Below are positions 1 through 31,693 of a DNA stretch of 64,000 nt, piece after piece (positions within the stretch are counted from its first letter, which is position 1; each line of letters starts with the position of its first letter). Below the pieces are notes generated by a model. The model searched no databases, had not been told where the DNA came from, and saw nothing but the letters and a program-made list of their open reading frames with translations. Location: positions 62,001 to 126,000 of the forward strand of contig JBAIAA010000607.1 in assembly GCA_037893245.1 (NCBI GenBank). Reading direction: 5' to 3'. A program made the translations under genes and the position numbers. This stretch comes from Crossaster papposus. Taxonomy: Eukaryota > Echinodermata > Asteroidea > Velatida > Solasteridae.

Positions 1-1009
1 TACCAGTAGTAAAGGGTTGGTTTGGCAAACAAAATTCAATAATGATGTATACTGCCTGGTACACAAAACAAGTACATGTACCGGTACATATAAATATGTT
101 TCAGTAATACTTGGTACATGGTAAGGGCCCGGTGTAGCACTAGCAGTATATTTTATGTTTTTCTTCAAATTCGATTGTGTATTCGTACAGGGCTACCTAA
201 AAATGTATTGGTACCGGTATGTGTACATTACATGTACATGTATGGGTGTACGGTACATGTGATGAGTTTCCAATTGTACAATGTACATGTATGCCATTTT
301 CATCTCTTTTAAAAGCCCACTCTTTCTTGGCTGCCCAACGTCAGTTGAAATTTTTCTCATTTTTCAAATGGATCACGTTTTTGGAAATAACACGTACGTT
401 TTTATTTTGAATATCGGGTCAAAATCTAGCTGGGTCTGGTGTCCACTGTCAATTTGTAGGTCAAGCTGGCAATTTTCAGATCAAATTAGCCTGTAAGTAA
501 TAAACCAAACCAGCCTAGATGACAGAAACCAGACCAGAAACCAGACCAGCTGAAGACTCCAGAGTTTGGCATATGACCTCTATGTAGCCTACATGTAATC
601 CATACAATCCAATTTATCCTGACAAAAATCTGCTTTCAATTCTATTATGTTATGTGACTCAGTCATCATTGAAAAAAACCCTTAAAATTTACTATCTGCT
701 GACTGTGCAGACTAAATTGTCCTTAGTTACGGGCTAGTTGGGGGACTAGTAACACTAAACAGGCTTATTTGATTAGGCATGAATAAACATTTGTCTGCGG
801 AGTCTGCAGACAGTTGGCTTAGTTTTAGTCTTAGCAATGGCAGAATCATCATTGAATTCTGCAGACAATATGCGGAGTTGTTATTTAAAAAAAACTTTAA
901 ATTGAAATTGAGATCTTAGATTATTGTTAATCTGGAATATACTGGTACGGTATAATTGCAGAGATGAAACTTCATCAGGTTACCAGTACTAGTTGTCAAG
1001 CACATGTCT
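1..1009. other. Gene-free stretch, TACATGTA-rich
   Basis: No convincing exon is visible. The first 300 bases are dense in ACATGTAC and ACCGGTAC palindromes, which create short spurious frames. The rest is AT-rich single-copy-looking DNA with no recognisable element. Confidence 0.5.
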
Positions 1010-1396
1010 TTAAAGGTAGGATACACTATTGGTAATTGCTTGAATTATCATGAATAGGTAGATTTGGGGGGTTGTATTTTATAGTAAATATCGTTTAACT
1101 GACCTGTCAGAAGTTTTACACTCATGGATGCCGAGAAAAACACGAAAAACAGCGTTTGTTTTCCACTGGCGTCGAGCAGTTATTCTTATGTTATCTTTGT
1201 TTTTTCGCGATCGCCGGCCGGCGATCACAAATTTTTCTTTATAAAATTCTACTTGTCGGAATAATTACAGGATATCTAGTGCAATCATTTTGCTGAATGC
1301 CTAGAATCATTATTTACTTTCAAATGAGTAAGATATTTCTTAATAATTCGGTAGTAAATATTTTTGATATCTGCAAATGGTGTATACTACCTTTAA
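1010..1396 (-). mobile_element. Family A TTAA MITE, copy 1
   Basis: This is a near full-length non-autonomous DNA element. Orientation convention used throughout: + means the end reading ACCATTTGCAGATATC comes first, and this copy is reversed. It runs from TTAA-AGGTAGGATACAC to GGTGTATACTACCT-TTAA, so both ends carry inverted AGGTAG(G/T)ATACACC termini and a TTAA duplication. The centre has the palindrome GATCGCCGGCCGGCGATC. TTAA target duplication is the hallmark of piggyBac-type transposition; the superfamily assignment is inference because no transposase is present. Confidence 0.85.
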
Positions 1397-1507
1397 TTGA
1401 GCACTTTTGCTGTTTCAAAAGATACAAATTCATGCACAAACAACAAATTGTCTAATCTACATGTAGTATGTACTCTGTACCTCCACTCTACCAGTACCAG
1501 TATCCCT

Positions 1508-1894
1508 TTAAAGGTAGTATACACCATTTGCAGATATCGAAAATATTTACTACCGAATTATTAAGAAATATTTTACTTATTTGAAAGTAAATAATGATTC
1601 TAGGCACCCAGCAAAATGATTGCGCTAGATATCCTGTTATTATTCTGAAAAATTGAATTTTATAAAGACAAATTCTCGATCGCTGGACGGCAAGCTCGAA
1701 AAAACAAAGATAACATAAAGAATAACTGCTCGACGCCGGTTGAAAACAAACGCCGTTTTTCGTGCTTTTCTCGTCATCCATGATTCTAAAACTTCGGACA
1801 GCTCAGTTAAACGATATTTACTATAAATACAACCCCCCAAATCTACTCATTCATGATAATTCAAGCAATGACCAATGGTGTATACTACCTTTAA
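1508..1894 (+). mobile_element. Family A TTAA MITE, copy 2
   Basis: This is a full-length copy of 387 bp including both TTAA sites. Terminal inverted repeats, the central GATCG hairpin region and the subterminal GTTAAACGATATTTACTATAAA block are all recognisable. It lies 111 bp from copy 1 in opposite orientation, so the two copies form a large imperfect inverted repeat. Confidence 0.85.
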
Positions 1895-2940
1895 ATCCCA
1901 ACACATAAACAAATTACTACTACATGTGCATGAGGTGCCAGAACTACAAGCAAGTGTCCATGAAAATGTCCAGACTGGCTACCAGTACCTCATCAGTGCA
2001 GTAAAACTGTGGTCCACTAGACCACCACCTCCCCTCCCCCAGGGCCAGCTGTAAGTTTAAGGGCCAGCTGAAAGATTTAATGGGGTCTAGGCTTGTCAAG
2101 ACATTATCAGGCCCCATGGGACCCCAAGCCTAAACAAACACTGATTACACAGCCTATCAAACATTTGTTCTGGCCTTTTTAGTCACACCTTTTCCTCTCT
2201 TATAATTTGGACAATGGGTTGTCCCTGTCATCATGCATCACACACAGGTCAAGGACTGGGGTGGGGAGAGTGAACAGTACTAGTGTGAAAGACAATGTAA
2301 TTGTAGATGGATGTAGGTGCATTGTACTATTGTACTACATGTACCTCCATGATATACATTGTAATCAAAACCATGGAGGAATGTCAAAACCAAGTACTTG
2401 TCAAAACAAATCAAGAGCCTCGGTACCAATGAAGTGTGGACAAATGTTTCCTTGCCAAGAAAGAAAAAAAAGAACTGCACCTGTTGTATTGTCATTGACA
2501 CCTGTACGTACATGTACCTGTACAAGCCAACAAGACTTATACACGTTAGGACAGTATGTGACCACTAATGGAGATCATAGCAAACGTTGTCCATTGGTCA
2601 TACATGTACCTCGGCCAAATCGCCTGCAAATCGCACGATCCAGAAAATGGTACGATCCGGTGTGAACGAGGCATTTATTTAGGGGTACATGAAGCTATAT
2701 CATGTACACTGTACACGGTACATGTACAGTGTACTACAAAATTATCATACATGTAGGCCAAAATTACTGTAAAGGCCTACCAGTACATACATTGTATACC
2801 TGGTACACTTACAGTTTACTCAAGTAGTACTACATGTAGTATTCTGTAGTACGGTATTACCGTTAGGCGACGTAGGGTTAAAACCCTATTCTAGTAAATG
2901 AGGCAGTCTTCATGAAATCAATTGTATATTCAATATTCCT
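1895..2940. other. Gene-free stretch
   Basis: No exon or element could be supported. It contains several GTACATGTAC clusters (about 2,335, 2,510 and 2,690-2,760) and one CCATGGAGGAAT motif near 2,372 that recurs in hairpins elsewhere in the window. Confidence 0.4.
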
Positions 2941-3318
2941 CACACCATTAATAATTGGTTGAATTTATCATGAATGATGAATGAGTAGATTTGGGGGTCG
3001 ATTAACTGAACTGTCCGAAGTTTTACAATCATGGATGCCGAAAAAAAGCAAGAAAAAAAGCAAGAAAAAAAACCAAGAAAAACAGCATTCGTTCTCAATC
3101 GGGCAGTTCTTAATTATTCTTGTTTATTTCCTTGTTCGTGTTTTTTTTTTTTTTAATTGAATTTTTTGTAACAATTACAGGATATCTAGCGCAATCATTT
3201 TGCTGGATGCCTGGAATCATATATTGGAAGATCAAAGATGGAAGATATTTCTTAATAATTCGGTAGTAAACATTATAGATATCTGCAAATGGTGTATCCT
3301 ACACACATGTACCTTCAA
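2941..3318 (-). mobile_element. Family A MITE, copy 3 (diverged)
   Basis: Reversed copy recognisable from CACACCATTAATAATTGG to ATCTGCAAATGGTGTATCC. The interior carries a duplicated AAAAAAGCAAG tract and an A/T-rich replacement of the central hairpin. The expected right end CCTACCTTTAA reads CCTACACACATGTACCTTCAA, that is, the TA dinucleotide is expanded by 10 bp. No clean TTAA duplication remains. Confidence 0.75.
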
Positions 3319-4024
3319 TACGTATCACAGTGATGCATTTTATCTGTAGAAGAGTTACAAATCTTAGGAAAAGAAAAAGAAAAAAAAATAGATTCTCGTC
3401 CTCGCGCGCATCCTTGTTTGCTGCTGTATCAAGCCCCCAATGGGCTATGCAGAGATGGAGTTAAATTATTATCTTATGACCATATGACGCAACACTATAT
3501 AATTCTGCAATAAAGTATAGATCTATACAAATTATACTAGTACGTCGAGAAACGTATTGGCTTCTATATCATGTACCATGAAAACCAAAGAATAAATATT
3601 TAACAAATTACTTACATTGTACACATACCAGTATGTTTTTTCTGTTTCCCCTTGTCACAGCTGCATGTGTACCAATACATGTATAACGAATCCAGTCTAA
3701 TCAGTACACTGTTGCAGTTTACTATAAACTGGTACATTACACATTACACATTTTTAAATCTCACCATGCAGACAGTCATAGAATGAGCATGGAGATCAGG
3801 AATGAGAGACTACCGGTACCACAAAGTACAGGAGCCATGCAACAGTGGTGGAAGTTATTAACTACCCCTTCAGGAAGTAACCATCTATTTGTTTGGAGTG
3901 ATTCCTTCCTATTATCTGACCACATTTCCTAAACAGATCACCTACATGTATAGACACAAATAATCAAGCAATAAGCCAGGCAACTGTTAAACACACTATG
4001 CAAGGAGACCTCAAGCCATTAGGT
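3319..4024. other. Gene-free stretch
   Basis: A-rich tract near 3,368 and several TACATGTA palindromes. No exon, RNA gene or repeat unit that I can support. Confidence 0.4.
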
Positions 4025-4245
4025 TTAAAGGTAGGATACACTATTTGCAGATATCAAAAAGTTTTACTACAGAATTATTACAAAATATCTTTCTTATTTA
4101 AAAGTAAATAATAATTGTAGGCATCCAGCAAATTAATTGCGCTATATATCATGTAATTATTCCGAAAAAATTGAATTTTAAAAACATCCGGTTGAAAACA
4201 TTCATGATAATTCAAGCAATTACCAATGGTGTATCCTACCTTTAA
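4025..4245 (+). mobile_element. Family A MITE, copy 4 (internally deleted)
   Basis: A 221-bp deletion derivative with both TTAA ends. The interior jumps from GGTTGAAAAC directly to ATTCATGATAATTC, removing the block that normally encodes the CATCCATGATTG and ATATTTACTATAAA segments. The same junction is present in the copy at 25,701-25,972, so the two derive from one deleted ancestor. Confidence 0.85.
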
Positions 4246-4430
4246 ATTGTACAAATGTACTAGTACTATGGTAAATAAATTCATGCACATACTGTACCAG
4301 TATGTACATGTACATGTACCAGTGTACAATTACATGCATGCAAACTTGCTTGTGTAAGGGTGGGTTTTCACGGGGGCACGCGAACGATTAGCGAAGGATG
4401 TGAATGCCGAAAAAATGGCAAAGTCCAACA
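4188..4430 (+). repeat. Duplicated block, copy 1 (pairs with 25,913-26,145)
   Basis: About 240 bp spanning the end of a deleted family A MITE, a spacer with ATGCATGCAAACTTGC, and a 73-bp transposon end. It is almost identical to 25,913-26,145. Differences include an extra CATGTA unit here (TATGTACATGTACATGTACC versus TATGTACATGTACC) and ACTAGTACT in place of ACC. Confidence 0.85.
4358..4430 (+). mobile_element. Solo terminal inverted repeat of the 26.1-kb TIR element
   Basis: These 73 bases, beginning GGGTGGGTTTTCACGGGGGC and ending AAGTCCAACA, equal the left inverted repeat of the complete element at 26,073-26,712 over its exact length. The rest of that element is absent and a family A fragment follows directly. 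Confidence 0.8.
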
Positions 4431-4431
4431 A

Positions 4432-4614
4432 AAAATGTTTACGATCGCCGGAAAATAAATGAGAACGACAAAATAACTACCGCCCGACTCGTTTTTTATC
4501 AGCATCCATGATTGTTCAACAATTTTTTTCTCTAAAATACACCCCCCCCCCAAAAAAAAAATGCATCTATTCATGATAATTAAAGCAATTACCAATGGTG
4601 TATCCTTCGTTTAA
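4432..4614 (+). mobile_element. Family A MITE fragment, copy 5 (right half)
   Basis: Right half of family A from the GATCGCCGG hairpin region to ATTACCAATGGTGTATCC and a TTAA. A run of nine C and nine A bases disrupts the usual TACAACCCCCCAAATC block. It abuts the solo inverted repeat with no spacer. Confidence 0.75.
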
Positions 4615-5023
4615 TAGGCAGTTGGGATTTGCCAGGATATGTTCCTTGTAAAATACACTAGGGAGTTAGGGTTTATTTGATAAATTTTAAATGAAGTACA
4701 CTATCAAAATGTACTTTATGTGTACAAATAATGTAAAGTATAACTAATGCCAGCATGCAAGCATAGCAAGTTCTTGTTTCTCGAAACTTCCTCCCGAGTG
4801 AATGACAAAACACAGAAAAATCCTGAAATTCAATGGTTCAAGGCAAAAAAACCAACCCCCCCAAAAACAACACATCCAAACTCTGTATAAATTTGCAGCT
4901 TTTAAAATATTGAGACTGTTATTACACTTTCATAAATCCTACAAATATACAGAATTGTTACAAAGACAAAGAAATTAAAAGTATAAGGAAACAAATAAAT
5001 TGCTACAATCTCAAATGCTTTAC
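4615..5023. other. Gene-free stretch (possible intron of a minus-strand gene)
   Basis: AT-rich, no exon recognised. If the candidate exon at 5,024-5,108 is real, this would be the start of its first intron. Confidence 0.3.
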
Positions 5024-5108
5024 CGCCGAATTTCATCATCTTGAGATACTTGCTTCTCCTCTTCTTCCCTCTTAGTTTACCGAACCCAGGAAGAACAAAA
5101 CACAGCAT
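5024..5108 (-). CDS. Candidate first coding exon, unidentified protein
   Basis: A short open segment starting with ATG at 5,108 on the minus strand encodes MLCFVLPGFGKLRGKKRRSK and then YLKMMKFG, a strongly basic stretch. It ends at a plausible splice donor (GGCG then GTAAAG, the GT at 5,023-5,022), leaving phase 1. A TATATAAA box lies about 240 bp upstream at 5,350-5,357. The match of TATA box, start and donor is suggestive, but short upstream frames precede this ATG and no later exon was found. I do not recognise the protein; it could be chance. Confidence 0.25.
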
Positions 5109-5349
5109 GATTCACCAGCGTCGACCCTCAAAACATCCAAGCAGATCGGTTCAAAGTCCAAACAGTCCCGTCCCACAAACAAAACAAAGCAAAGCCAAAC
5201 AATTCACGGAGAATAATCTTTGCATGCGCTTGGATAAACTGAAAAATGTTTTGCTTAAATGTCCGACCGTATGGTACATGTACTTCACGCAGCTTGCTTT
5301 CAAACCAAAAACCGAAGACGTAAAAATCGGCACAATCCGTGCCGCAGTG

Positions 5350-5357
5350 TTTATATA
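5350..5357 (-). promoter_or_regulatory. TATA-box-like motif
   Basis: TATATAAA on the minus strand in the context GGTCTATATAAACACTGCG. A near-identical context (GGACTATATAAACTCCG) lies upstream of the candidate exon at 38.2-38.4 kb. It is placed to serve the candidate exon at 5,024-5,108. Confidence 0.35.
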
Positions 5358-5410
5358 GACCTACGGCATCTGTCAAAGCAAAGCAGATGCCACGGAAACC
5401 ATTACATCAT

Positions 5411-5462
5411 TGTTCCCAGGGTTGGGAGTTCCACGTTGTTCCCAGGGTTGGGAGTTCCACGT
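5411..5462 (+). repeat. Exact 26-bp tandem duplication
   Basis: A 26-bp unit beginning TGTTCCCAGGGTTGGGAGTT occurs twice back to back without mismatch, suggesting a recent slippage duplication. Confidence 0.9.
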
Positions 5463-5882
5463 TGGAACTGCGCCATTAAAATAATCTCATTCAGAATTCC
5501 CGCGACCGGTTAAAACACGGTCAATGCACAGGTACGTAGGCAATATTGATTGGGAGTGACCTTTATAGTTGTAACTGGCCAGGCCCTGATCCGATGAGGT
5601 AATTCTAACCGTGCTATTTTAGGAATCTTTCGCCTTGGGGATGTGAACATGATGATGTAGATGGTGGTATTAAACTTGCAGATGATGAAATTAAATGAAT
5701 ATAAATATAACCAGGGGAAATCCTTTTGGCTAACTCTATTAATTAGTTGATTGATTTGGTCTGAAGGAAATCTAGCATGAAAGATTTTCTCCCAAATTCA
5801 ATTTGACATACAAGATAATATAGAAAATAAAGAGTTTAAATGTATACTTATGCGTACAAAAATGCTTTACTTATATGTTAAC

Positions 5883-5914
5883 CCATGGAGGAATAAGAAG
5901 GCATTCCTCCATGG
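5883..5914. repeat. Hairpin CCATGGAGGAAT / ATTCCTCCATGG
   Basis: Perfect 12-bp arms flank the 8-nt loop AAGAAGGC. GTTAAC lies just outside both arms, extending the symmetry with a one-base offset. The same arm sequence recurs at 15,714-15,743 with a loop that is nearly the reverse complement. Confidence 0.85.
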
Positions 5915-5917
5915 TTA

Positions 5918-6165
5918 ACCCTAGCCAAATACTGATTTACATCAATAAGAAAACAAATAATTTAAAAAAACAAATAAGTTAAGCAAACTTTTATGACTTT
6001 TTATGATGTGCAAGTGTATATTTGGAGACAAAATTAAAACTTCAATTCAAACGCAAATTCTGTATTACATTTACAACAAGCTCGATTGGATCTCGGAAGC
6101 TGCAGGTCAACAAAATTGAACGATTTTGTGTGCACACTTCGAACAGCGTCCTCTTTCGTTTTTCA
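5918..6165 (+). repeat. Interspersed repeat R2, copy 1
   Basis: Begins near AACCCTAGCCAAATACTG and includes ACTTCAATTCAAACGCAAAT, CAAGCTCGATTGGATCTCGG and GATTTTGTGTGCACACTTCG. Related copies are at 8,087-8,262 and about 34,905-35,005. No coding capacity or clear termini; class unknown. Confidence 0.75.
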
Positions 6166-7728
6166 ATGAATAATAGATTTCCTCCGTGTACAGGCGTACA
6201 TGTACGTCCTTTTATTTTTTTACGGAAAAATGGTTTTCAATTTTTACCCAATTCTAAAGTGAAACAGGCAGCTATTGACAAAAAGAGGCAAAGAACTTGT
6301 CCGAATTTTAAACCTATAGATGCAGTTAAATTACCTAAAAAACATAAGATTTTGCCTAAAAACTGCCGCGGTAAGTGTGACTTTTGCCCGACTCGCTTGT
6401 GCTCTGTACCGATGTTTAATATTACCGGTATATGAACAAAAGGAAGAACATGGGAACTCCTTAAGCTGCTTACCCACAGAACTGTACATAAAGGCAAACG
6501 CTTTTATATACACTGGTAGTGGTACATGCCATGTAGATGTAGATGTAGTTCAAACATTTCCATCACAGGTTCTATGCAGCACAGCCACAGAGGTTTTCTT
6601 TTCAGAGGTTTCACCCAAATTAGCATTTAACTGCAGGCAATTAGTCAGCAGAGCTGACCCAATCTCAATTCCCAATCTCAATGAACCCTGCCTGAACTCT
6701 CAAATGTCCCTTCAGAGAGCCCATAGCTAAATATTTGACCCTTAATTAAACCAAGGGCTTTTTCCCCCCACATAAAAACCTTCTGGAAGCTCATTTCAAT
6801 AATCCTGAGGAAAAAGTTGGGAACAATGTACTTCCGGCAGCTACCTGTACCCATAGAGAAAGGCTGTACCATAGATCCTCCTGGATGTTCATACAAAGAC
6901 GCAGTGTCCTTGCACACAGTGTGACCAGAAGGATGCATTGGGAACAGAAACACCTACTGTATACTATACTGTACTCTTCCAGAATTTGCAGACAATGGTT
7001 TGGAAATTATGCCCCTTGGAAATCAAAATAAATCCCCGCTATGTGAATAGTGATTCCTGGGCTCTTCAAGCAGCAGTGCTATTATTAATGCAGGGAGAAT
7101 GAGTCATAGGGTGAAACCACTTCGCAGCGGGAGGGAAAAGGTAAAACAGTTGCAAGAGGGGACAACTATTAAAAGGAAAAGTGAGGGACAATCTTCCTTG
7201 CTTTGTCCTGTTTATATTATTTTATTTCAATTCTTGTAATTGTCCTCATATTTTTATGTAATCCTGCAAAATAATAAATGAAATGAAATGAAACACTGAA
7301 CACGAATGCTATCCCTACTTTGAGCATATCCTGTAAGATTAAAAAAAACAATTTTGTTAAATACTTGCCCTAAAAGACATCATTTTGGATACAGTTTTTC
7401 TGTGAGCTTTTACAATCAAAATATACCGACTTCTTTGTTCACTTTGAAATTTATGCCAATTTACCTAGTGTCAGTTTCCCTGGTACCGGTAGTTTAGAAA
7501 GTATGACCAAACTTTGTAAAGAAAAACATGGGTGATACTCGCCCATACCGGTTTGTCCACAGCATCATAATCCTCACTTGGCATATATTCTGTACTCATA
7601 AACACTTGCACTCCATCTGCATCTAATTAAGCTCTTGGAAGTATAGTTGTAGTATTTCTATGCCCAAAGCCCTTTATAAATACCCAATGAAATTAAATTT
7701 TTCGGAGTTGTGGAACAAAAAAGTACTC
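6166..7728. other. Gene-free stretch with a possible LINE 3' tail
   Basis: No exon recognised. At 7,262-7,292 the string AATAATAAATGAAATGAAATGAAA follows a T-rich segment and resembles the (TGAAA)n 3' tail of a non-LTR retrotransposon on the + strand, but no reverse-transcriptase coding was seen upstream. Confidence 0.35.
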
Positions 7729-8085
7729 TTAAGGGATACACCATTGGTAATTGCTTGAATTATGAGAAAAGGGCGGATTTTGGGAGTTGTATTTTATAGT
7801 AAATATTGTTTAACTGACCTGTCTAACGTTTTACAATCATGAGAACCGGTCTCGGGCAGTGCTTCTTATGTTGTTCTGGTTTTTTTCGCGATCACCGTCC
7901 AGCGATCGAGATTTGTTTTATAAAAATTTTTTTCAAAACAATTACAGGATATCTAGCGCACTCATTTTGCTAGATGCCTACAATCATTATTTACTTTCAA
8001 ATAATTAAGATATTTCTCAATAATTCGGTAGTAAAATCGTTCGATATCTGCAAATGGTGTATCCTTATCCTACATATACCTTTAA
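7729..8085 (-). mobile_element. Family A MITE, copy 6
   Basis: Reversed copy with TTAA on both sides. The right end reads CCTACATATACCTTTAA instead of CCTACCTTTAA, a 6-bp expansion (CATATA) at the TA. The central block is shortened around the GATCACCG hairpin. It directly abuts repeat R2 copy 2. Confidence 0.85.
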
Positions 8086-8086
8086 C

Positions 8087-8262
8087 CCTAACCTTAGCCA
8101 AATACTGATTTACATCAACAAAAAAGACAAAATTAAGCCAACTTTTATAAGTTTTAATGTTCTGCAATGTGCAAGTTTGAATTGAGGCAAAATCAAAACT
8201 TCAATTCAAATGCAAATTCTGCACAACATTTACAACAAGCTCGATTGGATCTCGGAAGCTCG
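8087..8262 (+). repeat. Interspersed repeat R2, copy 2
   Basis: Matches 5,918 onward: GCCAAATACTGATTTACATC, ACTTCAATTCAAATGCAAAT and CAAGCTCGATTGGATCTCGG are shared. The match stops after GGAAGCT, whereas copy 1 continues further. Confidence 0.75.
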
Positions 8263-8593
8263 GGAGGAGCAAGGTAAAAAATAATAAGGAAAAGTAGCAG
8301 TAGAAATACCAAAGTTAACCCTTTACATACTTTACCACATATTTTAAACAGTAAACCCAACATTGGTAAGGAAAGGGTTAGCAATCATCTCACCTCAGAC
8401 ACAATTTCCTCTCTCCAGACACATTCCAGGCTCGTTTCCAAACCATCTCAAGATGTCTGTTATGGATTCTCTATATGACGTACCGGTATCTTCTTAATTA
8501 TTTAAACCCTGCCACAAATCACCAACTCGCCAGACAATCGTTCTGTTTGTTGATGCAATGCTATGCATCATGTCTGATGAGAGTACAGTTATG

Positions 8594-8981
8594 TGGTAGG
8601 ATACACCATTTGCAGATATACCGGTATATAGAAACAAAATATTAAGAAATACATGTATCTTACTTATTTGAAAGTTTAAAAAGTAAATATTGATTAGAGG
8701 CATCTAGCAAAATGATTGGGCTAGATACATGTATCCTGTATTTGTTCCGGAATTTTTATTTTTTTTTAAAGAAATTGCGATCGCCGCAAGGCGAATGCGG
8801 AAAAAACAAGAACAACAACAACTGACCGACGCCGGTTAAAAACGAATGCCATTTTTCTTGCTTTTTTCTCGGCATCCATGATTGTAAAACTTTGAAAAGG
8901 TCAGTTAAACAATATTTACTATAACTACAACCCCTCAAATCCACCCATTCCGGATAATTCAAGCAATTACCAATTACCTTT
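8594..8981 (+). mobile_element. Family A MITE, copy 7 with three hexamer insertions
   Basis: Near full-length copy without clear TTAA ends. Compared with its siblings it carries TACATGTA where they have TA at 8,650-8,657 (AAATATCTTAC in siblings) and 8,726-8,733 (AGATATCCTGTA in siblings). TACCGGTA occurs in the CAGATATC region at 8,619-8,626. The rest aligns without large gaps, so these are discrete 6-bp gains. Confidence 0.85.
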
Positions 8982-9399
8982 CATTCAAATAAAGATCTCT
9001 AAGCATTTCTGCAGCCAAAAACTACTGAATAATTATCAAATAATTTACTTCACTGCAAATAAATATAAAACAGTCTCAAAGCATCCGGTGAAATCACAGC
9101 ATCCGGTGTGCTGCAGTTTTCAAGAAAAGTGAAATCTTGTATCCTTTTCCAACGATTACCGGCTGGCAAAGGTTGCAAATACCCGACTACTTTAAAACAC
9201 TGCCAACTATTTTTTTCAATTTAGGTAGTCCACATTTAATTTGCAATATTAATATTAATTAATTAGAGAAACATCCATGAATGGTTGACAGCCAACTAAG
9301 TCCGGTTTCCCCACCCAATAATTCCCCGATGTCTATAAATTGCTGTGTTTCGTCGGAAGAAAGTCTAGTCAAGTAAAACACCAAGGAAATGGTCTATCT
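8982..9399. other. Gene-free stretch
   Basis: Nothing supportable; a short direct repeat (GCATCCGGTG, 9,081 and 9,102) is the only structure seen. Confidence 0.4.
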
Positions 9400-9780
9400 T
9401 AAAGGTAGGATACACCATTTGCAGACATCAGAAATATTTACTACCGAATTATTAGAAAATATCTTACTTATTTGAAAGTAAATAATGATTCTAGGCATCT
9501 AGCAAAATGATTGCGCTAGATATCCTGTAATTATTCCAAAAAATAACATTTTAAAAAAGACAAATTCACGATCGCCAGACGGCGATCGTGAAAAAACAAA
9601 GATAACATAAGAATAACTGCTCGACGCCGGTTGAAAACAAACGTAGTTTTTCGTGCTTTTCTTGGCATCTATGATTGTAAAACTTTGGAAAGGTCAGTTA
9701 AACGATATTTACTATAAAATACAACCCCCAAAATCTACCCATTCAGGATAATTCAAGCAATTACCAATGGTCTATCTTAA
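9400..9780 (+). mobile_element. Family A MITE, copy 8
   Basis: Full-length with a perfect central hairpin (CACGATCGCC...GGCGATCGTG) and TTAA at both ends. The right terminus is atypical: it reads CCAATGGTCTATCTTAA, and the 14 bases ATGGTCTATCTTAA also stand immediately left of the element. Confidence 0.85.
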
Positions 9781-10059
9781 CTTATCAGGCTGGCTCATCC
9801 AATGGAATGGTTGGATCATTGCAATTCGCCATGGTTTCCATCTAGAGGGTCAATACTGGCTTGCAGTAGAGTTGATCCTTTATTATCCTGGCTGTCTGCA
9901 CTATGTCAACATTGCATTAGTAATCCCAAGTCTACAGACAGATATTGCTATTGAATTGAGTAAGAATGACCCATGGGAGACGACAGATAAACTGCAGTCA
10001 AAATAAACATCTCTCTCATCAATAAAGTAGAAAAAGATAACACAATTTTGATGCATGCG

Positions 10060-11042
10060 TATTAAAGGAAATGTACAAAATTTGCTTTTGTTTGAAATTT
10101 AAGGAATGGATGGATTAAGGGGAGAATTAGTATGGTATGTTATAGCAAATATTGTTACACTGACTCGTTTCATGTTTTAGGTTCGTAGACCTAGCTTGAA
10201 TTATAAGAAAAAAATTACCATGTTTTTGTAGTCTGGTTCTCTAAACCAAGATGAAACGGAGCAATTTATAGACATTAAAGAATTGTAACATCAGAGAATC
10301 AGTCTATAGCAGGGGTGCGTTCCACTCACGCGCACGTTGCCAACGTTGGCCAACGACGTTGGCCAACGTTTGCGTTGTTCGCTTCAGTGGAACGCAATGT
10401 GCGCCGATTATGTTGGCTAATGCTAGCGAAAACGGCGAACGACATTCCGAGCTGTTCGCTGTTGGCCAGTGACGTATTTTAAAGATGGCGAAGAGGTTAG
10501 CAGACGGCAGTGTTCTTTTCACAGTTTTGATTTACGTTTCATACTTTTCGTTATACATGGTGGATTGTTTTGAGCAGTTACAGGGATCTTTTAAAGAAAA
10601 ATAATGAGTTGGACAAAAAGCAGCCAACCAAACGATGTCACTGTCAATGGGTGCCGCCATTTTGAAAACGTAGTTTTTAAAATTTCGTTCCACTTCAACT
10701 AACGCAAACTCAAAACGTAGGCGAACGTTCGCGCAAACAGTTCGCGTAAGTGGAACGCAGCCCTGGCTAATGTATACCCCTTCACAAGAGTGGAATTAAT
10801 AGCAAAAATAAACAGAGATTACTAAATATAAAAATATGAGTAGCAGTATTTGGAAAGAAAGCCCGTTTTATTTTCTAACGATGGTTGGCTGACCAGCGTT
10901 GAAAATTGATATGAAAATACCACTTTAATACTTGAAAATGGCAGCACATATAACAGGATCTGCTATTCTCTAACAGTACAGTAACGAGATAATTTTGTCA
11001 TTTTGTTTTTTGATGTTTGCAAATGTTGTATATTCCCTTTAA
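10060..11042 (-). mobile_element. Very diverged family A-like copy, split by another element
   Basis: Weak similarity on both sides of 10,307-10,769: GGAATGGATGGATTAAGGGG and TATAGCAAATATTGTTACACTGA on the left, GTTTGCAAATGTTGTATATTCC-CTTTAAAT on the right. It looks like an old copy interrupted by the TIR element below. Low certainty. Confidence 0.3.
10307..10769. mobile_element. TIR element with TGCGTTCCACT ends
   Basis: Left end TAGCAGGGGTGCGTTCCACT and right end (reverse complement TAGCCAGGGCTGCGTTCCAC) are inverted repeats differing by one inserted base. The interior has repeated GTTGGCCAACG palindromes just inside the left end and GAACGTTCGCG near the right. About 463 bp with no transposase, so a MITE; superfamily not assigned. 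Confidence 0.7.
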
Positions 11043-11792
11043 ATATGTGCATACTAATCATGTGGGCATGCCAAAATGTTTTGGCACCTGACTTTTGATG
11101 GAATTATTTTGGACACGCCCCTATCACAGTTGCCTGCTGTGAATGTGTGACGTAATTCACTTGGTTTGGTTCCCTCAAGTGCCATCTGTGAGCAAATATA
11201 TGGCTTAATGTGCAATAAAAACATGCAAATGAGGCCAGGGGCCAATTTAGCTTCGCGATGCTTCGAAACTCAATTTACAAAGTGTTGCATTTATTGCGTC
11301 CCATCTCGCCACACGTCGTTAGATCCATTTCACGAAAATCGTGATGCGCTGAACACATCACAACTTCCTTGACTACGGTTTATGTCTTAAAATATTAAAT
11401 AAAAAACTATATTACGGAGACAATGTGTTGGAAGTTGTAGATGGAACATTCATAGTACTTAGTCAATATGAATAAACCTTGAACATTGCACTTGAAATTT
11501 ATAATTATCTACCGGTAGAAGTCTACAGCAAGCATGTTTTTCTTTCAAACCGCATCATACATCAGCCATTTTTATTTACGTTTGGGAAACTTTTAGAGAA
11601 GAGATTCAATGACTCTTTGCTGAATATCGAACGACTATTTACTGTGCATTGATAACAGTCACCATTTCGTGCTCAAATACCGGTACAAGGTGCACCTATG
11701 ACAAATTGCCCGTACCACATCCTAGGGATACGACGTCTTGTAGCATATGTTTCATGAAATTGGGTGCAGTACAAATTTCATAGAGCTGTTTA
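10770..11792. other. Gene-free stretch
   Basis: No exon or RNA gene supported. Short frames around 11,054-11,372 have no domain-like content. Confidence 0.4.
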
Positions 11793-12141
11793 TTAAAGGT
11801 AGTATACACCATTTGCAGATATCGAAAATATTTACTACCAAATTATTAGGAAATATCTTACTCATCTGAAAATAAATAATGATTCTAGGCATCCAGCAAA
11901 ATGATTGCGCTAGATATTCTGTAATTATTCTGAAAAATTGAATTTTATGGAGAAAAATTTGCGATCGCCGTCCGGCAAAAAACAGAAATAACTACAGAAA
12001 TAACAAGAATAACTGCTCGACGCCGGTTGAAAACAAACTTCGGACAGGTCATGTAAACGATATTTACTATAAAATACAACCCCCCAAATCCACCCAATAT
12101 TAATAATTTGAGCAATTACCAATGGTGTATACTACCTTTAA
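11793..12141 (+). mobile_element. Family A MITE, copy 9 (with a paralogous empty site)
   Basis: Full ends with TTAA on each side. The left flank TTTCATAGAGCTGTTTATTAA and the right flank TTAAGCACAAAAATTGCC match, joined with a single TTAA, the uninterrupted sequence at 12,262-12,300 in the neighbouring tandem copy. This shows the insertion duplicated exactly TTAA. The interior lacks part of the CATCCATGATTG block. Confidence 0.9.
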
Positions 12142-12412
12142 GCACAAAAATTGCCTAACCCTTGCTCTTCGCGAGTTGTTTACTGCATGGCAGTGGTACA
12201 TTCTACCCACTCCCGCTGTGTGTATTGGAGGATTATACATTATGGGGGCGAATATTAAAGTTCATAGAGCTGCTTATAATATTAAGCACAAAAATTGCCT
12301 TACCCTTGCTCTATGTGAGTTGTTTACTGCATGGCAGTGGTACATTATAATGCACTCCAGCTGTGTGTATTGGAGGATTATACATTATGGGGGCAAATAT
12401 TAAAGTGTATTG
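12141..12412 (+). repeat. 144-bp tandem duplication (about two units)
   Basis: Unit 1 starts at 12,141 (AGCACAAAAATTGCCTAACC) and unit 2 at 12,285. Both contain TTGTTTACTGCATGGCAGTGG and TGTGTATTGGAGGATTATAC. Unit 2 ends near 12,412. A third partial unit end (CATAGAGCTG) lies left of the MITE at about 11,780, so the MITE landed inside this array. Confidence 0.85.
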
Positions 12413-13674
12413 AGGGTAAAAAAAAGAGCAAGTGTTAAACACCAACAAAACTTGCTCAGGAAAACCAGCTTACCAGCCACAAGTCTATATGATACTGTTT
12501 GTGATGTAGCTGACATTATAGCCAATAGTAATAGCATAACAATCACATGAAATGTTGGCTTGTATTCCTAATTTACATGGTTTTTGTTCTTCTAAAAGCA
12601 AGATTGTAAGCAGGTGTAAACAAATTGGCCCCTGCTGTTCACAAATAATTACCTATTCCTCCCACAATGTAACGATATTCATCAGATGTCCCTCAGATAG
12701 TTTCTTGTTACATGTACAACTTAAAATCAATATTAAATACACACACTATCCGGTGAGTCACCACACTTAATAACACTGGTATTATAAGCCTCAAATGGGA
12801 GTGTTGATGAACAAAATATTGTTAGGAATACAAAAACTGCCATACCTGAGCAGTGACGTAAATCTTTGATTGTCTCCAATACACAGAGAGTGATGTCCAC
12901 ACAACACTAGGCTGTTGATCAATGCATTCAACTGATGAATATTTGTGCAAGCAAAGTCCAAAGCTTGTCTGTGTTACTGCATTTTAACTGCCTTCAATCA
13001 TGTCAATGGGTATACACTGTACTATACTTTGGGTATACTATAGAGTATCATAGCACAGTACATACCGTACTGTACATAAACATATAATTACCAGTATTTC
13101 AATCTACATGTGTACACGTACTGTACAGTGTATGTACTTATGCATACCCAGTGTAAAATAGTTAATTCTGGTCCAAAGTTTAATTTTTCTAAAAACAGGG
13201 TCGACCAGAGGTCAGTACACAGGCTACCTGTGAACAATTATACAAATAATGAATGTTTGTGTGTGCGATTGTGAGAGTACCGTAATTTCATCGATTGTGA
13301 GAGTACCGTAATTTCATGAGGCTTGGAATAGAATATATTATTTTCATTACACGAACGTGAAACATTCATTATTTGTTTTCTACAAAGCCTGAATAAATCC
13401 TCGTCATCTGATTGGTCAGAAAGCGACCGCGCTTCGGAAGTTCTATTCACCGTTGAATAGTAGTGTTTGCGGTGCGGCCGTGACGTGTGATGGAATGAAT
13501 AATTCAATGCATGTGATCAACGATCAACCAATCAGATGACATGGATTGTATAATACCCCTGTATCAAAATGGGTCCATGTGGTTACTGATCTAAAGTCAG
13601 TCTTCTCACAGCTACCGGTAAATCATTGGTTTTATGTAACTGCTCATCTTCAAATTTACTTTGTAACATTGGAA
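12413..13674. other. Gene-free stretch
   Basis: No exon supported. A 31-bp direct duplication (GATTGTGAGAGTACCGTAATTTCAT core) stands at 13,267-13,318. GTACTGTAC and TACATGTG palindromes cluster near 13,060-13,140. Confidence 0.4.
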
Positions 13675-14555
13675 CAGTTGAACGTCGCTATACCAAACGC
13701 CGCTACCAAACATTCGGCTATAGCGAACATCATCTTGGCTCCCAATTTGTGTAAAAAAATACCCAAGACTTTTGTTGAAAAAAAATCTATGAATTTTACA
13801 AAATCCACCGACCTTTTCTCCAAATTTTTTCCCTTAACATTCATGTTGAAATCCACTGGGTATATAGAACGCTATTAATTTTAGGCCGTTTTTAATTCCA
13901 AACTACTTCTGCTTTATAAAGAGGGTGCCAAGGACGGGTGCCAAGGACGGGTGCCAAGGACGGGTGCCAAGGACGGGTGCCAAGGACGGGTGCCAAGGAC
14001 GGGTGCCAAGGACGGGTGCCAAGGACGGGTGCCAAGGACGGGTGCCAAGGACGGGTGCCAAGGACGGGTGCCAAGGACGGGTGCCAAGGACGGGTGCCAA
14101 GGACGGGTGCCAAGGACGGGTGCCAAGGACGGGTGCCAAGGACGGGTGCCAAGGACGGGTGCCAAGGACGGGTGCCAAGGACGGGTGCCAAGGACGGGTG
14201 CCAAGGACGGGTGCCAAGGACGGGTGCCAAGGACGGGTGCCAAGGACGGGTGCCAAGGACGGGTGCCAAGGACGGGTGCCAAGGACGGGTGCCAAGGACG
14301 GGTGCCAAGGACGGGTGCCAAGGACGGGTGCCAAGGACGGGTGCCAAGGACGGGTGCCAAGGACGGGTGCCAAGGACGGGTGCCAAGGACGGGTGCCAAG
14401 GACGGGTGCCAAGGACGGGTGCCAAGGACGGGTGCCAAGGACGGACACCATCTTGAAAAATAGACTGGCGGTTGAAAATCGCTATACCGAACAATCGATA
14501 TACACTGAACGAAATCTGTAAATCCTGTGATGTTCATTATAGCAGCGTTCAGCTG
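13675..14555. mobile_element. pogo/Tigger-like MITE containing a minisatellite
   Basis: The ends are inverted: CAGTTGAACGTCGCTATA on the left and CAGCTGAACGCTGCTATA (reverse complement) on the right. CAG(T/C)TGAAC with CGCTATA repeats resembles ends of pogo/Tigger-type mariner elements, an inference from terminal similarity only. The inner flanks repeat the CGCTATACC(A/G)AAC theme. The middle is occupied by the 13-bp minisatellite at 13,923-14,442. No TA duplication is evident and no transposase is present. Confidence 0.55.
13923..14442. repeat. Perfect minisatellite, 40 x 13 bp (GGGTGCCAAGGAC)
   Basis: The unit GGGTGCCAAGGAC repeats exactly 40 times over 520 bp with no mismatch that I can see. 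Because 13 is not a multiple of 3 and the unit creates no stop in any phase, long frames are open on both strands (for example repeated CQGRVPRTGAKDG on + and LAPVLGTRPWHPS on -). These frames are a by-product of the repeat and not genes. Perfect homogeneity implies recent expansion. Confidence 0.97.
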
Positions 14556-15710
14556 GTTCAATGACACTGACATAAAATGTTTACTGTGGGTACATGTACC
14601 TAATGAGGTACAGTGTACCATACATGTACCAACATACATGTAATAATCAGTTCCAACACAGGGCAGTGACCATAGAAACAGTCAAACCTGTATGACACAA
14701 ACATTTTCTTTGGATGTTGCTTACTCAAACTAGTAGAAAAACAAGAAAAGATACGTGTGTTAACCAACACAAATGACTGAAAACACTGTACTGCATGTAC
14801 CTATTCTCATTATGGCTCCACCCTTTTTATCAAGTTTTTAATGCTGGGATCCATCAGGGTCACTGTTTTGTTTAGGTATGTACAGAGGGACCAACCTGCA
14901 TACATACCAAATTTGAAGTTAATACGTGTACATGTCAAGTTCCACCATGTCTATTGTTTAAACCACAATGACCTTGACCTATGGAGTTCAACAGGATTGT
15001 AGAGGACACCAACACCAACCCCAACCCAAATACCAACCATGTCTATTGTTCAAACTATCAACCTTGACCTACTGGGGTCCAAAATTAGGGTTCCTAATTA
15101 GCCCACACACCAAGTATGAAGTTGATACCACATGCAGTACCCGTGGAGTCCTTCTCAATATATATAAATATTGTGCCTACCCCTATATACCCAGTACATG
15201 TACATAATGTACGTGTACACGTACATGTACATGTAATACATTTTCAGTGTGAAGGATCCCAATACCAATTCCAACATCCTTCTCTAGTTCTCATCTTAAC
15301 AATCTATTGACCTTGATCAGATTGTTCACTGGAGGAAACATGTGATCCACGTGTACAATGTACAGGTCTACCTGTAGAGCGAATCTGGATCTTTACTTCG
15401 CTCATTTTACTTTCCTCACTCAACTGGTACTGCATGTATTTTCCTTTATGCCAGTACTGTAGTTTCAAGGTTCCATTCCCACAAGCACAGCTGACAAACC
15501 CCAGTACTAGATCATCAGAAGCCTGTCACTCAACAGGTTTTTTGTATGACCTTCACACCTGGTCTATCTGCAGTGGAAGTTTCATGGTTGACCTGAGATG
15601 TTGTCCCAGGATCAGGGCTTCCCAGCATGCAGAAAGTCCATGGTTGAGTCCCAGTATTCACACCATAATAAAAGTCTGATGACTTGGGAACTGGAAAAGG
15701 TGGCTGATTG
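14556..15710. other. Gene-free stretch with a loose internal repeat
   Basis: CCATGTCTATTGTT(T/C)AAAC followed by ACCTTGACCTA occurs at about 14,945 and 15,038, with a third weaker version near 15,295. Otherwise ACGTGTACACGTACATGTAC-type palindromes. No exon supported. Confidence 0.4.
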
Positions 15711-15713
15711 AAC

Positions 15714-15783
15714 CATGGAGGAATACCTTCTTATTCCTCCATGATTGAACCATGGAGGTACCGGTAGGTTTCCTACCTCCATG
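15714..15783. repeat. Twin hairpins with CATGGAGG arms
   Basis: First hairpin: CATGGAGGAAT (15,714-15,724), loop ACCTTCTT, ATTCCTCCATG (15,733-15,743). Second hairpin: CATGGAGGTA (15,751-15,760), 13-nt loop, TACCTCCATG (15,774-15,783). TGATTGAAC borders each arm, so the two are a duplicated cassette. Arms match the hairpin at 5,883-5,914. Confidence 0.85.
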
Positions 15784-18361
15784 ATTGAACCTTGACTTAT
15801 CCTGCTGTTCCCCCCAAACCTTATGTTATAGTTAATGAATCAGCTGGTCAGCAAGTCAGTGCCTCAGTAAGTCAGGACAAAAGGCTGGCAATTTGGGGGC
15901 CAGAAAAAAACATGTTCATTAATTCAACCTCAGACAGTATCATCATTTGCATGCCCAGGTTTGATGGAAAGGGATTAAGATTTTAATTGAATGGTGTGAA
16001 TTGATAACGATTTTTTTTAAAGATAAAACAAAAAATACCCAAAACAGTAATTTGGGAGACCCTCTTGTTTTACAGTTCAAAAACTGCTTTTGCATTTGAC
16101 AGCCAGTTTCAAAGTGACTTCACGCAAAAGCGAATGCGATACAAATTTGACGTCGCAATGCATTCACTGCGAACATTTGCTGGAGTTGAATGTGTTCAAC
16201 TTTTGCGAATTCGCAGCATGAACAACTTTTGTGTAACACATTTGTGTTAGCGCCGAGTATGAACTAGCCTTTATGCATTCTTTGTTCTTCAGAATAACCT
16301 GAAGTGGGAGTCTCACATATTGTCGTTTTTACCTCATAATTTCTCTTAAATCAAAATCTTGCCCTCTTTCTATACAATTTTGCTTACTTTTTCTGCTTGT
16401 ATCATTGCCAAATTCTAAAAACATAAAAAAGTTTTTATTCACTTATGGAACAGGGGTCCTATAAAAATACACGATAACCAAGGTGACAATGACATTTCCC
16501 TGTCTTTTTGTTTCTTTGCTATTCGTTTCTCCATTAAATTGTCCCCTAGTCCACCACTTGTCTGACTAAACCCTCTTCCCCAAAGAGATATAATAAACGC
16601 TAGTTGGACGAGTATACATGCGTTTACGAACTGGCACTTACTGGGTACCGGCAACAAAAGGGCAGCAATGGAACAATGGTACCCCACAGTCCCGTCTTTA
16701 TCGCATACGGGAATTAATAGTGTCTGATACTTTACAACACAATGTACATGTACACAAACTCATGAATCCAAGACAAAAACCTTCTCACTTAAAATTATAA
16801 GCCATTCCTTCTCAAAAATTGTCAACTTATTACCTTCCAACACTCTTGATCCCAAAACAGGTACATGTGTACTTACCATAAGTGCCATCAAATTACACTG
16901 TATCCATTACGACACTTCCAAAACACCAAGCACGTCAACTGCAATTGTCAGAAAAACCCTGAATCTATGTAGCTCAGTAGCTGGTACATGTACACCCACA
17001 TGTACCAATGTTTTCATCAAGTGAATCGCCCATCCACAGAATCATATTCCCTTGAAACTTGCAAGAACGTGAACACACCAATTCCTAAACTAAACTAGAC
17101 AGGAGTGGCTCTATGTCAGAACTGTACATCAAGAATCGAGACACACTGTGTGCATGCCTGATGGCAATGTATTATCACATTGTGTACATGTACCGCCCAT
17201 ACTCTCAAAGAAATCGGTGTTTAGTGAGTAACCCCTAAATTCCAGCAGGACAGTGCACCAGCCATGAGCCTAATCATCCATAAAATTCACCCGTAAAATT
17301 CACCCAAGCCATTGTGTTCTTGGTATTTCTAAACTCTTTTACTAGAGTCAGGGTGTCTTTCAGACTACAATGCTCCAATCTCGGCTTTGTGATTAAAAGC
17401 GCAGAGGCATACAGACTGTGCCTTTGAATTTCAAACAGCGCCCCACAAATAAAAATAAAAAATATAGGCCAGATGACGTACTGAGTTTTAGTTGCGACTT
17501 TCAGCAAGACTATTATTGTTACATTCCTGGCATACTATTGCATACTGTACTTGTACCTTCCATTGTCAAGATTTGAGATTGAAACACAAAGAAAATTTGA
17601 AATATATGCAGTTTTGCCCAAATACCCAGTGGCGGATGGATGGATGGATGGATGGATAGATAGAGAGAGAAAGTGAGGGGGGTTGCAAACAAAACCGAAG
17701 CCCCCAAGATTGGTACATGTAATATCAATGTACATATATTTATTACAACTATTACAACTTTTCTATTGCAAATAAAACCAAAACGTTACATGTTATTGCA
17801 GGGCACCAGCCAGCTTGTAAACGATATGCGTAAATCGACTTGGAACAAGGTGATCGCTATTCAAAATAGTGCCCAAAACATCGTCATGTAATTGTGAATT
17901 TCGCAGTTTTCACAGAACTTTGTTTTGTGAGTGACATCATGCATCATGATGACTACCAAAAGGGACAGTTTTCTACGCAAAGGAATTTTAGTTCATCACG
18001 TCAACAAAGACAAACAGCAGGCATTTTGTAAGGTTTGTCGGTGAGATCTCTCTATCACACCAAATCAAAACTACATGTACCGGTATACAAGTATGGATAG
18101 CAATAGAGCGAAGCACAGTCAACAATAAAATTGAAATTGTGTTCCCCATCACAAGCATGACTAGACTTAAACGTTCACATCACAAGTTTTAAACGTCACA
18201 TGAGCCGAGTCTTTGTTCACTTGGAACTATTCATTGTCATGTGAAACAAAAATTCTTATATAATTAAATAAACTTCTACTCAGAAATTTCAAAGAAAAGT
18301 AGCTAGGAATCACCTCAGATTGCACAACAGAGAATCTAGAATCCAATTTATTTGGGGGCCC
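15784..18361. other. Gene-free stretch
   Basis: No exon supported. 16,065-16,260 is rich in TTTGCGAA/TTCGC words resembling the interior of the 26.1-kb TIR element but has no ends. A GGAT/GATA microsatellite stands at 17,634-17,660. Several GTACATGTAC palindromes. Confidence 0.4.
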
Positions 18362-18777
18362 TTAAAAAGGTAGGATACACCATTGGTAATTGCTTGTATT
18401 TTAACCCTAACACTCGGTCCTCAATTCTCCAAATTCATTATGATTTCGCACACACCAAAGTGAGTTATGGTTATAGTAAATATTTTTAACTGACTTGTTC
18501 GAAGTTTTACAATCATGGATGCTGAGAAAAAAAGAAAGAAAACCGGCGTTCTTTTTCAACCGGCGTCGGGCAGTTCTTGTGTTTCTTTTTTTTTCTCGCA
18601 ATAGCCATCCGGCAATCACAATTTTTTTTAAATCAAAATTAAATTTTTCTGAACAATTACAGGATATTTAGCACAATCATTTGGCTAAATGCCTACAATC
18701 ATATACTTTCAAAACTTTTCTTAATAATTCGGTAGTAAAATTGTTCGATATCTGCAAATGGTGTATCCTACCTTTAA
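18362..18777 (-). mobile_element. Family A MITE, copy 10
   Basis: Reversed copy with TTAA at both ends. The usual ATTATCATGAATGGGTGGATTTGG block is replaced by about 60 bp starting TTTTAACCCTAACACTCGG. The central hairpin is degraded (GCAATAGCCATCCGGCAATC). Confidence 0.85.
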
Positions 18778-19084
18778 GCGGGCCCCGGACCCCACACCTT
18801 CAATAGCTTAACACTACGAGCTTGCTGGTATCATACTAAGAGTTCAATAGACCAGTTTCCCAATGAATGTGTCTACTGGTACATGTACCGGTACATGTAA
18901 TTCTGGCACTGTTTTTTGTACAGTGACTGGGAGAGTACTGGTACCGGTACATGTATTTTGTTACAATAGAAAAGTATACACATAAACTGAGACCCATACA
19001 TACAAGATTTTCACAACACCCGATACAAATTCAATCTTTGGCTGTGGTACCCGCTGCAAATCAGAATCGATCCAGTCAGCTGAC
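18778..19084. other. Gene-free stretch, palindrome-rich
   Basis: Contains TACATGTACCGGTACATGTA at 18,878-18,897, that is, three CATG/CCGG units in series, and GTACCGGTACATGTA near 18,941. No gene. Confidence 0.4.
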
Positions 19085-19146
19085 CCGGGCTAGCTTGGTA
19101 CATGTAATGCATCTAGAAAGCAGGAGGTTGTGGGTTCGAGTCATAC
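19085..19146 (+). repeat. tRNA-like sequence (SINE head or tRNA relic)
   Basis: CTAGCTTGGTA...ATGCATCTAGAAAGCAGG followed by GGTTGTGGGTTCGAGTCAT resembles polymerase III A and B boxes with the spacing of a tRNA. A hexamer (TACATGTA at 19,099-19,106) sits in the D-loop position where tRNAs have TA. There is no intact acceptor stem, so not a functional tRNA gene. Confidence 0.5.
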
Positions 19147-19784
19147 ATTGTACTCTCACCCAAGTCAGCAATTTATTTATCCCCCAAAGAATGACTTGCA
19201 GAAACAATGGAGTATGCTGTGTATAAAATAAATACGACGGTGCATGGCTAACATCAAATTTAGAATTTCAAAAGCCCAAGGTGCAACACTAAAATAATAG
19301 TAACAAAGTTGGCACAAGATTCTACATTTACTCCCACACCAAGATGACATTTAAAAAGATCTTCCAGCAGAAAGCTACATTGGCCGCTGACCACAAATTG
19401 AACCACACCTTCAGCCCCCCCCCCCTTCCTCTTTTCCTGTTCTAAAGGTGACCCTAAGTGTTTGATGATTATATCTTGTGATTGCCCAGCCTACTGGAAG
19501 GATGCTGAATCACCAACAACTCCTGGCTATTTTGGCTAGAATTTGGAACATCCTTCCAAGAGACCTTACTCAACTGCGCATCTTTTGCTATAGCTTGAAG
19601 CAAGGTGTGCAGTCATTCCAGCTCCGCTAAGTCAGCCTGAGTTAATTAATCTTAACCGCACCGTTTGTGGTATGTACCGGTATCACCTTTTTTATAGCTC
19701 CGTGGTATCATCTTGCATGCACACAACCACCGTACTACATCCACCTGATGGTGGACTATACTTCACCAGAATTAAGAGAGAATT

Positions 19785-19925
19785 AAAGAGGACCTGACAC
19801 GGGATTGGTTTTCAAAAACCTCGATCTGAGACAGGTTCAGGCCAGCATCTGTGGGAAGCAGTAGCACACCCTGATATTTCCAGCCTCACTCACTGCAAGC
19901 TGGTCACTGACAGATATGATGGCCG
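19785..19925. mobile_element. Family T fragment
   Basis: AGACAGGTTCAGGCCAGCAT followed by CTGTGGGAAGC and later TGGTCACTGACAGATAT matches the interior of the family T copy at 24,312-24,518. Ends are missing. Confidence 0.6.
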
Positions 19926-20680
19926 TAAATATTTTATACCCTAACCCGAACACTAACCCTTACCCACATCCTAACCCTAGTTTATCAGTTTATTTTGAGT
20001 TGATCTGTATAGTGAAAAAACCTTGTGGAGGCCTTTACACCTATATAAATGACCCTGTGGAGACGTATTCATTCCCATTGTGTTCACGTCTTTACAGGGT
20101 ACCGTATTTCCCTCCACATGTACTGTACATTGATTCACTGATAAAAAACAAGTATGGATGGGTAACTGTACCTGTAGTACCTACTGTACATGTACAGCAT
20201 TTTAGCTAAATACCAGCTACATACATGTATCTCTTTGATTTCAAGTCTACAGCACGGCACACTGTCAACAATTGCCACGATTTGTCAGGATTCTGTTCAC
20301 TTTGGTAAAAGTGTAGCTTACTTTTTATTGCACTAGCTGTGCTTTATTTACTGTCAGCTTCTAAAGCCACAATAATAGCCACAGACATCCAGTATGTTTT
20401 TTTCTGCATGCCTTCACATATCATCTTGAAATGTAGAGCACCATATTTGGCGTTTCAGCATAATGTGATACATGTACATATTACACATGTACATGTACAT
20501 GTATGTATGACATGTACATGTACCCTACGGAACGTTAATAAAACAATCTGCCTGTTATTCTGCATTTCCTAAGGCCAGGCATTCACTACCAGCCGGTAAC
20601 TGTACCGGCCAGCCTGTAGCTTGGCCGGTAAGTTTTATCCCCTTCATACTGGCCAAGGTACTGACCAAGGCTCTGACATG
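19926..20680. other. Gene-free stretch
   Basis: Starts with a degenerate CCCTAACCC string (about 19,938-19,978). Contains a CATGTA microsatellite-like run at 20,468-20,525. No exon supported. Confidence 0.4.
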
Positions 20681-20899
20681 AGCCGCGTTCACATTGGACT
20701 TAATATTGTCAAATGTTACGGTACGTGATTGTCAAAGTTCACGGTGTTAAATCCTCCGCTAGAAGCTTGGGCCTGTAGATCTTACTGTTGCGGAGGGTAA
20801 AATGAACAATTTGACAATGTTACCGCCTGTCCGCATTGGATTTAATTTGGTTAAGTTCTCCGTAGGTTTTACCAAAAAAAGTCCAATGCGAACGCGGCT
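20681..20899. mobile_element. Family H MITE, copy 1
   Basis: 219 bp with inverted ends AGCCGCGTTCACATTGGACT and (reverse complement of right end) AGCCGCGTTCGCATTGGACT. Interior is a short CG-containing spacer. Related ends occur at 28,808 and 45,037. Harbinger-like grouping rests on the TAA duplication of copy 2. Confidence 0.75.
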
Positions 20900-29552: not shown

Positions 29553-29555
29553 TAA

Positions 29556-31690: not shown

Positions 31691-31693
31691 TTT

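Follow-up and report, generated by a model that had tools for sequence, protein, structure and literature searches.

Stereotyped TA-bounded insertions in Crossaster papposus as probable excision scars of TA-targeting transposons

We have found that a short, stereotyped insertion with TA on either side, first noticed in one copy of a MITE, is a real, general and heritable feature of the Crossaster papposus genome and extends much more widely than that one copy. The unit gained is not a fixed hexamer. It has the form TA-CA-(N)0-2-TG-TA and is accompanied by a second class, TA-CCGG-TA. The insertions are derived, have TA on both sides, are built in the main class from CA and TG halves around a variable centre, are inherited, and are clustered by region. 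We consider it probable (about 0.65) that they are heritable excision scars of TA-targeting, Tc1/mariner-like cut-and-paste transposons, and refer to them below as scars. The window is the whole 64,000-nucleotide stretch of DNA analysed here; the genome searched comprises 1.02 Gb in 1841 contigs.

The MITE that hosts the original finding, copy 7 of family A, occupies 8594..8985 on the plus strand, its ends being approximate and based on repeat families D8 and D10 together with alignment to sibling copies. The family consensus is 387 bp long and has the ends TTAAAGGTAGGATACACC...GGTGTATCCTACCTTTAA. Alignment of copy 7 with the 11 sibling MITE A copies of the window reveals two clean 6-bp gains, AAATA|CATGTA|TCTTAC and AGATA|CATGTA|TCCTG. 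Each is a CATGTA gain at a TA and produces the word TACATGTA, at 8650..8657 where the siblings read AAATATC, and at 8726..8733 where they read AGATATCC. The earlier note was right that the siblings lack the hexamers: CATGTA is present at either site in none of the 11, and ten have a gap at both. The eleventh (41140-41275, minus strand) carries a CCGGTA gain of its own at a TA 4 bp away. The further claim of three independent gains in copy 7 stands for these two only. At 8619..8626 the word TACCGGTA lies in diverged MITE sequence (CAGATATACCGGTATATAG in copy 7 against CAGATATCGAAAATATTT) with no net gain of length in the alignment, and therefore neither shows nor excludes an insertion. The TA at 8650..8657 has also been struck in other genomic copies of the MITE. 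Elsewhere in the window, gains at the MITE's CTAG site have given TACATGTA at 25806..25813, in the sibling copy at 25718, and TACCGGTA at 41156..41163, in the minus-strand sibling; TACACTGTA at 58554..58564 is a gain of the form CA-N-TG when compared with a single sibling repeat.

The form of the unit emerges from comparison of repeat copies. In an all-versus-all alignment of the window, 6-bp gaps account for 42 events, compared with 15 for 5-bp and 6 for 7-bp gaps. The events are pairwise, which means that a single insertion is counted several times, and some of the 42 do not contain the motif. A larger alignment of this type, covering 334 kb in 77 records, with close tandem pairs and three loci rich in satellites excluded, was used to list gains in one copy relative to its siblings. 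Here TA-bounded 6-bp gains are found at 43 of 254 places, 26 being CATG, 4 CCGG and 13 other sequences. Across all the 6-bp gains that hold CATG or CCGG, 30 of 34 have TA on both sides and 4 do not, in agreement with the proposal that each gain begins and ends at a TA. TA-bounded gains of 7 bp occur at 11 of 97 places and have the form CA-N-TG in 5 of the 11, four of these five resting on one or two siblings and the fifth (L080) on 56. Those of 8 bp occur at 5 of 237 places, with CA-NN-TG in 4 of the 5; the four probably represent two lineages, one comprising L051, L059 and L078 and the other L027 (compared with one sibling). Given a rough, composition-based expectation of 0.0037, the chance of 26 CATG in 43 would be ~1e-52 and that of 5 CA-N-TG in 11 ~3e-10, values that treat places as independent although inherited copies are not. 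The sharp 6-bp peak that had been predicted is thus present among the gap events, but it does not stand alone, and the 7- and 8-bp gains of the CA class mean that the joining of two CA...TG ends accounts for the data more readily than would insertion of an invariant hexamer. TA-bounded 5-bp CCG gains, counted at 31 places in one search and at 30 in the larger alignment, are assumed to belong to one repeat family and were placed outside the scar evidence.

Word counts bear this out to some extent. The window has 130 copies of TACATGTA (shuffle mean 2.21) and 51 of TACCGGTA (shuffle mean 0.41), with none of 100 shuffles reaching either count, and the two are the commonest TA-N4-TA words present. 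The third commonest, TACCAGTA (18 against 2.0 expected), and the similarly raised TACTGGTA (7 against 1.8) are single changes of CCGG and look like CCGG scars that have aged through CpG decay. TACA-N-TGTA is found 28 times against 4.3 expected, with A, T and C each at the central position 8 times and G 4 times. In the window every spacer length from 1 to 8 bases separating TACA from TGTA is over-represented (10-28 against 3.6-5.0), so that this single-base excess partly reflects a general density of halves. In 261 kb of other loci the counts are 62 against 12.7 for a spacer of one base, 28 against 13.3 for two, 20 against 13.2 for three and 22 against 13.3 for four; of these 73 loci, 28 had been selected with a pattern whose last letters are TACA at the MITE site, a choice that of itself contributes about one case with a single-base spacer and three with two bases. 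The CC class with an extra central base is not enriched, either in the window (2 against 1.2) or in the other loci (2 against 3.9). Two minor classes, GGCC (9 against 1.5) and CGCG (8 against 1.6), are seen in the other loci.

That these are insertions rather than losses, as the earlier note had held, is supported at the CTAG site of MITE A, where 11,280 copies genome-wide have exactly the empty form and 248 carry any gain of 1-24 bp. The scar form is consequently derived and uncommon at a given TA, with a frequency that scaling puts at perhaps half a percent. A hand tally of the first 100 listed of the 248 gained copies contains 11 of CATGTA (two of which, on contig C3 with near-identical flanks, may be one event) and one each of CATGTACATGTA, CAATGTA, CATTGTA, CAATGTACATGTA, CATTGTACATGTA, CACATGTA, CGGTGCATGTA, CATGTG, CATG, GATGTA, CCGGTA, CCGTA and TCCGGTA. 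The expectation that gains at TA would be CATGTA or CCGGTA needs qualifying, the commonest gain in this tally being the dinucleotide TA (43 of the 100); the remaining gains, GATAGTA (7) among them, are changes of other kinds. The 2-bp gain, which converts CTAG to CTATAG, is far commoner here than at the ATAT site of the MITE and may mark an inherited subfamily or a scar without end bases. One copy with it was found among the fetched loci, and all such gains were kept out of the scar evidence. At the ATAT site 265 copies have a gain. Among the first 100 of these listed, counted by eye, there are seven 6-bp gains (CATGTA 3, CCGGTA 2, CATGCA 1 and GGCCTA 1), many of the other entries being not insertions at that point but hits on a variant of the left word lying upstream.

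Individual copies of these two sites were read. A pattern for the ATAT site followed by CA matches at 62 places, from which 30 loci were fetched and 29 places retained (L066, which repeats L065, was dropped). Ten have a single CATG, four have at least two stacked units, one has CATTG, three have CATTTG, one has TACAGTA and ten have other changes. Of the stacked copies, L077 is mutated and L067 has an altered right flank. Forms encountered at one MITE site include CAATG, CATTG and stacks such as CATTG-TA-CATG. Of the first 20 of 200 pattern matches at the CTAG site, seven are scars, with CATG in six and CACATG in the other; two of the seven are probably one event.

Both motif classes are concentrated in particular regions. 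Genome-wide there are 318,073 occurrences of TACATGTA against 145,386 of a control, the pattern read backwards, and 41,190 of TACCGGTA against 14,746, corresponding to 0.31 and 0.040 per kb respectively. The window has 2.03 per kb of TACATGTA (6.5 times the genome average) and 0.80 per kb of TACCGGTA (20 times), and is a hot zone for both. Within 1..51800 lie 126 of the TACATGTA occurrences (130 in all) and 50 of those of TACCGGTA (51 in all), and the densities of the two covary from bin to bin across the window (Spearman 0.48 to 0.60 for bins of 1 to 4 kb). In 40 kb of neighboring contig, TACATGTA occurs 13 and 13 times per 10 kb upstream, and 6 and 4 times downstream. At 29 MITE-bearing loci elsewhere it averages 0.73 per kb and is highly uneven, ranging from 0 to 15 per locus. 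A further hot zone, on the 100-kb scale, is G000:C1:1444207-1624010, where among the matches listed TACCGGTA is far denser than over the initial 350 kb of that contig. An exon-like match to PCMT (protein-L-isoaspartate O-methyltransferase) lies at 63244-63651 on the plus strand, in the end of the window that has few scars. Other features of the window include a 13-bp tandem repeat at ~13920-14456 (unit GGTGCCAAGGACG in some phase, many exact copies, several frames open) and two repeat copies at 31399-31695 and 43204-43500, which are 97% alike and terminate in a nearly perfect hairpin whose 82-bp arms are separated by 3 bp. There are also fragments matching RVT_1 reverse transcriptase, at 33017-34150 (plus strand) and 51646-52086 (minus strand), the second scoring slightly under the curated cut-off.

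We looked for elements that could have left the scars. A clean, un-excised element was present in none of the 29 copies read at the ATAT site and in none of the 20 at the CTAG site, a small sample. Four copies of one lineage, L052, L053, L054 and L074, leave the MITE at the TA of the ATAT site and enter DNA beginning CATTAGG; this junction sits in a tandem unit, and the right-hand half of the MITE does not follow. Long insertions at TA with CA...TG ends are absent from 80 of the 258 candidates of the all-versus-all search. A scan for TA-bounded inverted repeats in the window and the first loci yielded no convincing CA or CC donor in the part of the 401 pairs inspected, which are mostly MITE A, satellites and self-matches of scars. 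An inverted repeat in L028 starting TACATTTTC was considered as a TA-ended element and rejected, since the repeat runs outward beyond the TA. These searches yielded no donor with CC...GG ends, and the Tc1 end sequence has no match in the window at up to 3 mismatches. Tc1-type genes are present in the genome, with 150 scored PF01498 matches among 302 candidates, and at least 2 of 12 fetched loci have complete TA-flanked ends TACACTACTC...GAGTAGTGTA. Retention of two bases of each of these ends would give exactly TACATGTA. Genome-wide, scars are orders of magnitude more numerous than the Tc1 copies encountered.

The model that we favor is one in which the element would insert at a TA, duplicating it. 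On its departure, cutting would expose short single strands of the element ends, with CA on each side, and end-joining that keeps both ends would leave TA-CA-TG-TA, sometimes with one or two bases added in the middle. Another kind of element, whose ends match themselves (CCG, for example), would leave TA-CCGG-TA with no bases added. The restriction of added bases to the CA class would follow because two CA overhangs are unable to pair, whereas CCG overhangs can do so through their CG. An element that moves without being copied, with each break end-joined behind it, would leave many scars per element, and this could account for the excess of scars over resident elements. The transposase, the overhang lengths, the repair route and the donor elements of this scheme are putative.

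The scars would work in the same way as Tc1/mariner excision footprints, although their assignment to that family is putative. Tc1/mariner elements insert at TA and duplicate it, their excision leaves 2- or 3-base 3' overhangs (PMC3878927), bases of the overhang stay between the TAs after end-joining (PMC3878927, PMC7827188), and some elements reinsert near the donor site (PMC3878927). The footprints of Tc1, Sleeping Beauty, Frog Prince, Himar1 and ZB resemble our scars in having a duplicated TA, retained end bases and an end-joined break. For CA-(N)0-2-TG the residue likewise reads as two element ends with a variable joint, whereas we found no element with ends matching the CCGG class. The scars differ in length, the main forms being +6, +7 and +8 with both CA ends kept, compared with published residues of 2-4 bp, for example C(A/T)GTA, mostly +4 for somatic Tc1 scars in C. 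elegans (PMC13148408) and 0-3 bp for ZB (PMC7913693). They are also very numerous, and no filled counterpart was seen at the two sites. ISY100, a bacterial insertion sequence of the Tc1/mariner family, leaves the donor junction TATATA and has no genome-wide scar record. Excision scars identified between two rice genomes were, like ours, recognized against uninterrupted copies, but are described as very complex, with exactly two target copies in 8 of 94, whereas those described here are short and stereotyped (PMC4423477). In the literature searched, mostly non-subscription, we found among the matches listed no description of such stereotyped TA scars.

The most serious rival is direct insertion, in which TA-specific machinery adds CA(N)TG or CCGG with a TA duplication in one step and there is never a resident element. 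Each event would create two TA sites flanked by C or G, a favored context, so that clusters would grow. The absence of filled sites fits this reading, and an excess of scars over Tc1 copies would look the same under it. GTAC is favored 3.6- and 3.2-fold in the two locus sets, which also fits. T before TA is avoided at scars in both sets (0.10 against 0.32), and this target preference differs from that of ZB for AT repeats (PMC7913693), a point against Tc1/mariner excision. A TA is shared by two scars in 23 cases against 6.8 expected under uniform placement, 12 of the 23 being mixed CATG/CCGG pairs, an excess explained at least partly by the hot zones and the flank preference. Against direct insertion, the central additions in CA-N-TG resemble end-joining and elements with fitting ends are present in the genome. 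We know of no TA-specific machinery of this type, and consider the reading unlikely. The same grade applies to the wider idea of TA insertion with little or no resident element, each event duplicating its target in a favored context so that islands of scars expand, whether as self-propagating insertion or as a transposon existing almost only as scars.

The remaining readings have much less in their favor. Slippage of a hexanucleotide microsatellite, (CATGTA)n, could be suggested by the stacked CATGTACATGTA runs, and may lengthen some existing runs. It is ruled out as the origin of the first unit by the empty copies and the mixed stacks: single units stand where siblings have none and so had no existing run to grow from, CATG and CCGG units are intermingled, and stacks combine unlike units such as CATTG and CATG. 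We therefore give it very little credence as a general account. Somatic elimination, by which germline elements would be cut out in the body tissue used for assembly, would explain the lack of filled sites at both positions read. The CATTTG common to MITE copies L051, L059 and L078, probably one lineage, implies, however, that the scar was already in inherited DNA, and the apparently aged CCGG forms TACCAGTA and TACTGGTA point the same way, making this reading highly improbable too. That the motif is a selected protein-binding site and not a mutational product draws on the palindromic nature of both main motifs and their density in one region, but is the least probable of all given the many copies at varied TAs of high-copy MITEs and the variable centres.

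What appears to be new is a stereotyped TA scar, at this density and with a variable centre, as a variation on the known theme of excision footprints. Should a donor prove impossible to find, an unknown insertion process would be at work. If, as we favor, the insertions are excision scars, then one stereotyped process would supply a large share of the small insertions in hot zones. A single assembly would then be a dense, readable record of transposon jumps, landing sites, departures and the joining of the breaks left behind, from which the germline excision rate, the choice of target and the signature of end-joining could be measured from sequence alone.
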